DNA from: Bacteroidota bacterium | GTDB lineage: Bacteria; Bacteroidota; Bacteroidia; AKYH767-A; OLB10 | Assembly (NCBI GenBank): GCA_947447155.1 | Contig: CANFIN010000014.1 | Coordinates: 1-40,573 of the forward strand | Direction of reading: 5' to 3' | Length of the DNA: 40,573 nt | Shown here: piece by piece, positions 6,670-8,603 of the stretch | How positions within the stretch are numbered: the first letter of the stretch is position 1 | Layout of the letters: each line of letters begins with the position of its first letter | Translations under genes and position numbers: made by a program | Notes under the pieces: generated by a model | Seen by the model: the letters and a program-made list of their open reading frames with translations, nothing else | What the model was told of the DNA's origin: nothing | Database searches by the model: none

Positions 6670-6725
6670 TTTGTTTGTTTTTGATTTTGGTTAAACTTAC
6701 AGCTTAATACCCATATTAAATTTTT

Positions 6726-6850
6726 GTAACCCAATTTTTACTCAAATTTTTTAAATAAATCGTAAATTGCTGAAAACCAGCATAAAAAATTGGACATCGA
6801 GACGGGTTACTACAAAATAATTGCAGACATTTGCTTTTATAAAGGGTTAC
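6726..6850. repeat. Three copies of GGGTTAC upstream of the sigma factor gene
   Basis: The 7-mer GGGTTAC occurs at 6804-6810 and 6844-6850, and in reverse orientation (GTAACCC) at 6726-6732, all in the AT-rich 215-bp gap between the small lipoprotein and sigma factor genes. It could be an operator or alternative-sigma element. The last copy overlaps a near-consensus -7 box (TACCTTTT, 6848-6855). No function is proven. Confidence 0.3.
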
Positions 6851-6884
6851 CTTTTTAAATAAAACGAATTAAAGACAAACCAGC

Positions 6885-7472
6885 ATGAATCAAGTTCAGC
6901 CTGTTGCCGAAATTGAAATTTTGGAGCTGTTACAAGCCGGAGATGATAAAACTCTAAAAGTTATTTATCGTCAGAATTACCAAACTGTAGTAAGCTTTAT
7001 TATTAACAATGGCGGAACATTGCAGGAGGCGAAAGATACTTATCAGGAAACGCTAATAGTTTTCTGCGAGAAGCTTAAGCAGGATGGATTTGAATTAAAC
7101 TGTAGCATTAAAACGTTCTTATATTCAATTGGTCGCCGCCTTTGGCTGAAACAGCTAAAACGTAAATCTCGTTTTACAACCGAGGAGTTGAATGATAGTG
7201 AAGACTATCTTCCCTTCGAAGAAGATAAAACTGATGAACGCGAAGAGCAGTTCTACGCAATGAATCAGGCGCTCGAACAACTAGGCGAACCGTGTAGATC
7301 TATTCTCAAAGACTTTTATATTAATGGTCATAGTATGGAAGAAATCACACAAAAATTTGGATATACGAATGCAGATAATGCAAAAAACCAGAAGTATAAA
7401 TGTTTGAAAAGACTCAAGAAGAGTTTTTTCGAAGTCTTTAATAACGGATTAGTAACTAATGAAGAATTCTAG
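6885..7472 (+). CDS. ECF-type RNA polymerase sigma factor (sigma-70 family)
   Basis: A 195-residue sigma factor with only regions 2 and 4, as in extracytoplasmic-function sigmas. Region 2 covers about 23-95 (IYRQNYQTVVSF through the basic RRLWLKQLKRK). An acidic linker follows, then region 4 at about 128-185 (LEQLGEPCRSILKDFYINGHSMEEITQKFGY, a helix-turn-helix). It should direct RNA polymerase to a small set of stress or envelope promoters. The stop codon overlaps the next gene by 14 bp, so the two are translationally coupled. That partner carries an anti-sigma-like head, giving a sigma/anti-sigma pair. Its target promoters cannot be read from this window, though the GGGTTAC repeats upstream could reflect autoregulation. 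Confidence 0.9.
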   Translation: MNQVQPVAEIEILELLQAGDDKTLKVIYRQNYQTVVSFIINNGGTLQEAKDTYQETLIVFCEKLKQDGFELNCSIKTFLYSIGRRLWLKQLKRKSRFTTEELNDSEDYLPFEEDKTDEREEQFYAMNQALEQLGEPCRSILKDFYINGHSMEEITQKFGYTNADNAKNQKYKCLKRLKKSFFEVFNNGLVTNEEF

Positions 7473-8556
7473 AGAGATTGATGAGATTATTGAACGATAC
7501 TGCTTTGAGGAATTAACTCCTGAAGAGCTTCGTATTTTTGAGCAGTGGCTAGAGAGTGACCCTCAAATGGCGGCGTCTGTAAATGATTTTTTATCGCTAA
7601 AAAATGCTTTTGAAAATTATCGCGAACGACTTGCACTAAGAAAGAAGATTGAAAGTATCCACGAAGAAGTAGAGTTTGATTTATTTAATACTCCAACCCC
7701 TTTAAAAGTAGTAAAGTCTGGTAATTCAACAAAGTTCCTTTTTGGTAAAGAACGTTCATATTTATCTATCGCTGCAGCTGTTTCTATTTTTATTTTAAGC
7801 GCTGTTTCTCTTTCACTTTGGATGTTTGGTAATGGATCATCTAAAAACCAAAATGCCTACCGCGAATTGCGTCGTGAAGTGGAGAAGATTAAAAAGAATC
7901 AAAAAGAAATTATTAAAGGAATTAATGCTGGCGATTCAAAAGAAGATCGTAGCCAGTTTACAGGTACCGGGTTTGCCATTACAAAAGATGGTTATGTTTT
8001 AACAAGTTACCATGTAATACAGGATGCAAAAGAAATTTATATCAGCAATGAATCTGTTGGACAGTTACAAGCAGAAGTGGTGTATTCTGATAAATCTTTA
8101 GATCTTGCTATGTTAAAAGTAAAAGAGGATAGCTTCCCAGGTTTTAAAGAAATTCCTTTTGCATTTAAAAAATCAATTTCTGATCCAGGCGAAAAAGTAT
8201 TTACACTAGGTTTCCCTCGCGAAGATTTAGTTTTTGGGGATGGGTCTATCAGTTCTTATACAGGTTTTGAAGGCGATACAACAGCGTATCAAATCAGTAT
8301 TCCGGTAAACCCAGGTAATTCTGGCGGGCCACTATTTGATAATCAAGGAAACTTAATTGGAATTATCAGTGGAAAGAATGAATCTGCCGAAGGTGCTTCT
8401 TTCGCAGTAAAATCAAAATGGATAAATGATTATATCAATTCAAAGTCGAACGCTTCTATTTTCTTGCCAACAAATAAATTATTGGTAGGCGTCGATAGAG
8501 CAACTCAAATAAAACGTTTGAAAGATGTAGTCTTAATGGTTAGAGTATTTAACTAA
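7459..8556 (+). CDS. Membrane protein fusing an anti-sigma-like domain to a trypsin/HtrA-type serine protease
   Basis: A 365-residue protein. Residues 5-60 form a short helical acidic domain (IDEIIERYCFEELTPEEL, FEQWLESDP) resembling the N-terminal heads of Bacteroidota anti-sigma proteins, without a zinc HxxxCxxC motif. One membrane segment spans about 101-123. A charged, probably coiled-coil stretch follows at 132-155. A chymotrypsin-fold protease domain covers about 165-328 with a complete triad: His185 (SYHV), Asp215 (SLDLAML) and Ser288 (GNSGGPL). No PDZ domain follows; only about 37 residues remain. The predicted topology puts the head in the cytoplasm and the protease in the periplasm. 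It overlaps the sigma gene by 14 bp. By inference it holds the sigma factor and responds to envelope stress. It could instead be a simple membrane-anchored quality-control protease. Confidence 0.85.
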   Translation: MKNSREIDEIIERYCFEELTPEELRIFEQWLESDPQMAASVNDFLSLKNAFENYRERLALRKKIESIHEEVEFDLFNTPTPLKVVKSGNSTKFLFGKERSYLSIAAAVSIFILSAVSLSLWMFGNGSSKNQNAYRELRREVEKIKKNQKEIIKGINAGDSKEDRSQFTGTGFAITKDGYVLTSYHVIQDAKEIYISNESVGQLQAEVVYSDKSLDLAMLKVKEDSFPGFKEIPFAFKKSISDPGEKVFTLGFPREDLVFGDGSISSYTGFEGDTTAYQISIPVNPGNSGGPLFDNQGNLIGIISGKNESAEGASFAVKSKWINDYINSKSNASIFLPTNKLLVGVDRATQIKRLKDVVLMVRVFN

Positions 8557-8577: not shown

Positions 8578-8603
8578 AGCGGACTTAAAAAGTCCGCTTT
8601 TTT
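8578..8603 (+). terminator. Intrinsic terminator after the sigma/protease operon
   Basis: AGCGGACTT (8578-8586), 3-nt loop, AAGTCCGCT (8590-8598), followed by a T run to 8603. It closes the two-gene sigma operon and separates it from the TolC-type gene. Confidence 0.92.

Follow-up and report, generated by a model that had tools for sequence, protein, structure and literature searches.

An ECF sigma factor gene and the overlapping gene that follows it, whose product joins in one chain a head made of helices, a single membrane span, a helical linker and a protease domain of the HtrA type, make up a system which is real and widely conserved in Bacteroidota. The function proposed for it, with about an even chance of being the right one, is that of a two-gene envelope-stress switch, in which an anti-sigma factor that contains its own site-1 protease keeps an autoregulated ECF sigma factor in check. 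The gene pair, its promoter and its targets would together form a compact switch which has apparently not been described; in the open-access literature, where that on ECF classification was only partly covered, no account was found of the sigma/fusion pair or of the GGGTTAC promoter. Envelope-damage sensing in Bacteroidota is poorly known. Of the ECF sigma factors of this phylum, only 6% are reported to be associated with class I anti-sigma partners (PMC7406223).

The system was analysed starting from a window, that is, the whole stretch of DNA under study, of 40,573 nucleotides (contig CANFIN010000014.1, positions 1 to 40,573 of the forward strand, assembly GCA_947447155.1), belonging to Bacteroidota bacterium (GTDB lineage Bacteria; Bacteroidota; Bacteroidia; AKYH767-A; OLB10). 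The features of the locus are collected in Table 1. The sigma protein matches the ECF sigma-70 superfamily model TIGR02937 above its cut-off (E=5e-17), as well as Pfam Sigma70_r2 (E=9e-8), and its open reading frame shares 14 bp with that of the fusion protein, both frames being present as an earlier note on this DNA had read them. Downstream of the fusion gene stands a hairpin resembling an intrinsic terminator, and the locus therefore looks like a two-gene operon.

Table 1. Features of the sigma/fusion locus, with their positions in the window.
Feature	Positions	Strand	Basis or remarks
Small lipoprotein, 64 aa	6475-6669	-	Divergent from the sigma gene; predicted regulon member
Promoter-like GGGTTAC-N15-GTATTAA, towards the lipoprotein	6704-6732	-	Exact match
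Promoter-like GGGTTAC-N15-GAATTAA, towards the sigma gene	6844-6872	+	Motif shared with 193/212 loci; autoregulation
ECF sigma factor, 195 aa	6885-7472	+	Open reading frame, profile matches, kept partner of the fusion gene
Fusion protein, 365 aa	7459-8556	+	Helical head, one membrane span, helical linker, protease domain
Zinc-less class I-like anti-sigma domain, residues 1-77	7459-7689	+	Head model, Foldseek, head profile
Membrane helix, residues 101-122, N-in	7759-7824	+	AlphaFold model, charge bias; hydrophobic-Ala-Ala at 104-106
Periplasmic helical linker (predicted coiled coil), residues 128-156	7840-7926	+	Low-confidence model; candidate site-1 cleavage zone
S1C (HtrA/DegS-type) protease domain without PDZ, residues 165-365	7951-8556	+	Triad H185/D215/S288; conserved C-terminal tail 347-364
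Intrinsic-terminator-like hairpin	8578-8598	+	9-pair stem, then T run

The pair recurs widely. Of the 24 genomes of the family to which the window belongs, 13 contain the full-length fusion (one copy being cut by a contig end), directly 3' of the same sigma gene. In two larger families of Bacteroidia, f7 and f6, the fusion was found in over 90% of the genomes sampled, namely in 363/396 (101 of 103 genera) and in 333/351 (20 of 25 genera), respectively. Moreover, a sample of 395 Bacteroidota genomes yielded, besides the window's own, 28 genomes with a near-full-length match that includes the head, which is shortened in two of these matches; the remaining matches in this sample are protease-only relatives. 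The sigma gene lies immediately upstream of the fusion gene in the related loci examined, and the alignment set comprised 215 sigma/fusion pairs, four further loci not being recovered by the script. Such a joint recurrence of both genes across the class Bacteroidia excludes chance. The fusion as a one-off or an assembly error could also be discarded, given its recurrence in its own family, in f6 and f7 and in the Bacteroidota sample. The same two-gene arrangement, which the earlier note had proposed to search for in other Bacteroidota, is present in many genomes, and the link it had drawn between the fusion protein and an ECF sigma gene extends across the class.

Beyond what that note contained, the locus is accompanied by a conserved promoter and by candidate lipoprotein targets. 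In 193 of 212 related loci, the sigma gene is preceded by the motif GGGTTAC, followed after 15-16 bases by GTATTAA or GAATTAA, and five of the six misses in a subset of 98 loci are one base off the pattern. The window holds two sites, compared with 0 in its shuffles, one before the sigma gene and the other before the divergent lipoprotein gene, and these two are the only exact sites of the 2.46-Mb genome. Furthermore, the motif occurs in 25 of 28 genomes with the fusion and in 6 of 28 without it, the latter figure being close to the level of the reversed-pattern control, and thus the motif travels with the sigma gene. Judging from these distributions, it is very likely the promoter of the sigma factor.

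The divergent lipoprotein has the lipobox SSCGG, followed by a low-complexity tail of E, T and A, and its similarity to the PG1828-family model NF050142 (E=1e-4; 5e-11 for a relative) stays below the cut-off in both cases. In at least 49 of 99 related loci, the motif precedes small low-complexity lipoproteins beside the locus; those under the motif are 58-93 aa long and rich in A, T, S, D, K and V, and half of them end in Lys. Among the relatives of the lipoprotein, DSAAAKV-like seven-residue repeats are seen, often together with a Lys at the C-terminus, features reminiscent of Braun's lipoprotein. In five genomes of family f7 (L154, L156, L157, L161 and L164), the motif also stands, away from the locus, before a gene for a 96-aa CBM48/AMPK1_CBM-like cytoplasmic protein, and in a sixth (L155) before one for a different protein with a similar sequence pattern (GDFNNWNP), while in two members of the window's genus (L099 and L123) it precedes a 61-aa predicted membrane protein (MIVLKCYLIACYLF...). 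With a pair which is near-universal in two large families, an exact promoter and candidate targets, the regulon becomes readable from genomes.

By its fold and its gene context, the head looks like an anti-sigma domain of the class I kind, modular and without zinc. Residues 1-82 were modelled by AlphaFold with a pLDDT of 85 as a three-helix bundle plus a fourth helix (helices at 2-15, 21-33 and 35-77, helices 3 and 4 running on). When this model was compared by Foldseek with 350,542 PDB chains, 12 of the 16 matches were anti-sigma domain chains or complexes, with RslA at the top, followed by RsiW, DdvA and RskA. Individual E-values were above 1, so that the weight lies in the consistency of the match list, and these weak values were counted against the anti-sigma switch explanation. 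Searches of 19 heads with curated anti-sigma models gave no match above cut-off; the matches recurring below threshold were anti-sigma models, zf-HC2 and DUF4880, the best being NF010501 (E=2e-4), zf-HC2 (E=7e-4) and DUF4880 (E=0.006). The head profile found no anti-sigma match among PDB sequences, where its best hit was an unrelated fusion protein (E=0.002). In the genomes of the window's own family, a profile of 19 diverse heads matched solely proteins encoded beside sigma genes, namely the fusion proteins and five others of 239-353 aa (L365-L369). All five lie directly after a sigma-like gene paralogous to the partner sigma gene, and in them the head is followed by a membrane helix and then by TPR or undefined parts in place of the protease.

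The absence of a zinc anti-sigma motif, which had been noted for the window, extends to the whole alignment, HxxxCxxC being found in 0 of 215 heads. The earlier proposal of an anti-sigma role is upheld by the fold and by the adjacency to sigma genes; the label of a new class, which had been tentatively attached to it, must be withdrawn. In fact, about 44% of the catalogued class I anti-sigma domains are zinc-less, RseA and RskA being among those without zinc (PMC7406223), and the class I fold match, together with the recurrence of the same head beside paralogous sigma genes and with other sensors, places the head outside any new class. In two loci of family f15 (L064 and L071), the fusion lacks the first ~39 head residues (helices 1-2), the remainder being retained from helices 3-4 through the membrane span to the protease; these truncated heads were also counted against the anti-sigma switch explanation.

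It is very unlikely that the fusion protein acts as a positive partner, either an activator or an anchor of the sigma factor, or that it is merely co-transcribed, exerting no inhibition. Class I anti-sigma domains bind sigma-2 and sigma-4, and coevolution of the head with its sigma factor was therefore sought over the 215 pairs by mutual information and by DCA of the mean-field type. With ~149 effective sequences, which is too few, neither showed enrichment over the protease control, a point that was counted against the anti-sigma switch and leaves room for such a role. Nevertheless, the fold of the head and its modular recurrence beside sigma genes speak for inhibition, as does a sigma-first overlapping operon with an autoregulated promoter, which is the usual sigma/anti-sigma layout.

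As regards topology, the mean net charge of the 18 residues flanking the span in the 215 homologues is +4.3 before it versus +1.0 after it, and the charge is higher before than after in 196 of them. According to the positive-inside rule, this bias makes the head cytoplasmic and the protease periplasmic, the latter in agreement with the location claimed before. Within the membrane helix, residues 104-106 read hydrophobic-Ala-Ala in 215/215 homologues (VAA 97, IAA 94, AAA 16, LAA 4, MAA 4), the helix varying freely outside this motif, and the corresponding site of L365-L369 reads LAA, IAA, IAA, LAA and AAA. In RsgI anti-sigma factors, RseP cuts the membrane helix and the resulting X-Ala-Ala-ended fragments are degraded by ClpXP (PMC12203970). 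A single N-in helix with a degron-like motif, taken as a signature in the sequence alone, is that of regulated intramembrane proteolysis (RIP). The E. coli RseA product likewise ends in VAA. The X-Ala-Ala motif is the strongest sequence sign of destruction by this route, although not a proof, as alanine pairs in a membrane helix can alternatively serve helix packing; its invariance makes regulated intramembrane proteolysis of the fusion protein likely.

The C-terminal part matches Trypsin_2 at residues 169-302 (E=9e-26) and also HtrA/DegS models, while no PDZ domain was matched in Pfam or NCBIfam; a short helix and strand tail (347-364) stands where a PDZ domain would be. A C-terminal PDZ domain is typical of DegS and DegP, though some S1C proteases lack one. 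PDB sequences aligning with the protease part are MucD, DegP-like proteins and DegS, and its predicted fold matches HtrA1 and DegS-deltaPDZ. The full-protein AlphaFold model places helices at 4-15, 21-33, 35-77, 101-122 (membrane) and 128-156, ahead of the protease fold; its details are weak, the mean pLDDT being no higher than 58 since the heads in its input were limited to near-identical ones. A one-span fusion with an HtrA-type protease and no PDZ domain, as first described, is borne out by these matches and helices. The triad His185/Asp215/Ser288, already seen to be intact in the window, is invariant in 215/215 homologues, so the protease is under selection to stay catalytic, and catalysis is probably needed for the function of the fusion protein. 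A pseudoprotease in some lineages was considered and rejected, since the six relatives with GNSGGF, GNSGSP or GQSGAP instead of GNSGGP all retain the serine.

The C-terminal helix and strand are conserved and are found as well in secreted relatives without a head. Such head-less proteases (L005-L011 and L037) share the tail, most of them having a signal peptide and extra domains, and constitute a separate S1C group in Bacteroidota. Couplings within the protein link positions 190-363, 192-364 and 187-354 (residues 187-192 and 354-364; window 8017-8034 and 8518-8550). From these couplings and from the model, it appears that the strand at the C-terminus docks close to the catalytic histidine segment, where it is possibly a built-in regulator in place of the PDZ domain.

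The conserved triad, as well as the existence of secreted S1C relatives with the same tail and no head, would also fit a protease acting as an effector, which degrades damaged envelope proteins or small lipoproteins and, when loaded, passes a signal along the helix to the head with no self-cleavage. This is improbable, as an X-Ala-Ala degron motif kept without exception indicates that the fusion protein is itself proteolysed.

Around the computed elements (fusion, pairing, triad, topology, fold, X-Ala-Ala, promoter and targets), we infer sigma binding, a trigger, self-cleavage and an order of cuts in the following way. The fusion protein would retain the ECF sigma factor at the membrane through its N-terminal anti-sigma domain; it would cross the membrane once, N-in, and carry its HtrA-type protease on a periplasmic helical stalk. 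Once switched on, for example by a misfolded or mislocalised envelope protein, the protease would cut the stalk of its own or of a neighbouring copy, this site-1 cut removing the bulky periplasmic part. RseP would then cut the membrane helix after Ala105-Ala106 and ClpXP would degrade the head fragment through its new X-Ala-Ala end, while the freed sigma factor would transcribe its own operon and a few targets, mainly small lipoproteins, from GGGTTAC-N15/16-GTATTAA promoters.

RseP works by size exclusion, and the folded periplasmic domain of ~240 residues must go before it can act. For this site-1 cut, the protease of the same chain is the obvious candidate, acting in cis or inside a trimer of the HtrA type, and the window's genome encodes a site-2 protease of the M50 family. 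On the other hand, the linker sequence is not strongly conserved outside the own family, and across the class no conserved cleavage sequence was found in the stalk, only L137 passing 85% in the 215 homologues, a feature which was counted against a self-cleavage switch.

The anti-sigma factor could instead be controlled by regulated intramembrane proteolysis with the site-1 cut made by another protease, the S1C domain sensing peptides or misfolded protein and merely exposing the stalk. RsgI9, where an S1C-like domain has been proposed as the sensor, offers a precedent, and the own-family head proteins with TPR or undefined parts must be cut by something else. Nevertheless, such an arrangement is rather unlikely: a triad invariant in 215 homologues would be needless in a pure binding domain, and no separate DegS-like protease was found in the genome (an assembly 84.5% complete), whose only other S1C match is a 486-aa Do-like protein.

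A switch with its own site-1 protease thus remains the preferred reading, and a bolder form of it, to be held more tentatively and with somewhat less than an even chance, would be a self-contained autoproteolytic switch with sensor, site-1 protease and anti-sigma factor in one chain. Its trimers would cut themselves or each other, and large families of Bacteroidota would rely on it as a core response to envelope stress, equipped with a promoter class of its own and a mini-regulon whose members are small, disordered lipoproteins. Should the protease be the site-1 enzyme, one chain would join what E. coli divides between RseA and DegS, and a simple model would become available for the switching on of HtrA proteases without a PDZ domain.

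Several known systems share parts of this design. RslA, RsiW, RskA and DdvA have the same head fold, with other sensor parts and, in some, zinc. The RseA/DegS/RseP sigma-E pathway of Escherichia coli shares the zinc-less class I domain, the membrane helix, an HtrA-type protease and the RIP logic; there, RseA is one protein and DegS, with its PDZ sensor, another, whereas here one chain without PDZ is found. Dma of Bacteroides (PMC13088901) shares the Bacteroidota host, adjacent sigma and anti-sigma genes, an N-terminal anti-sigma domain, one membrane helix and an unusual extracytoplasmic part, but the latter is a disordered tether with an outer-membrane beta-barrel and no protease; the fusion protein lacks a C-terminal barrel of this type, that part being the S1C protease. 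The earlier view of anti-sigma factor and protease as one chain stands as to the fusion itself, while the fused layout has a precedent in RsgI9 of Clostridium thermocellum (PDB 7sjy; PMC12203970), which also combines a cytoplasmic anti-sigma part at the N-terminus, a single membrane helix whose X-Ala-Ala motif ClpXP recognises and an extracytoplasmic S1C protease-like domain. RsgI9 differs in that sigma-I is not an ECF sigma factor, in its other cytoplasmic domain, in being an orphan without its own sigma gene, and in having an NTF2-like domain, an autocleaving periplasmic domain and a polysaccharide-binding S1C domain (PMC12203970). As this S1C domain is reported to be protease-like and to bind polysaccharides, a fused S1C domain need not be a site-1 protease. 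RsgI9 is the nearest precedent of the system described, followed by Dma and by RseA with DegS.
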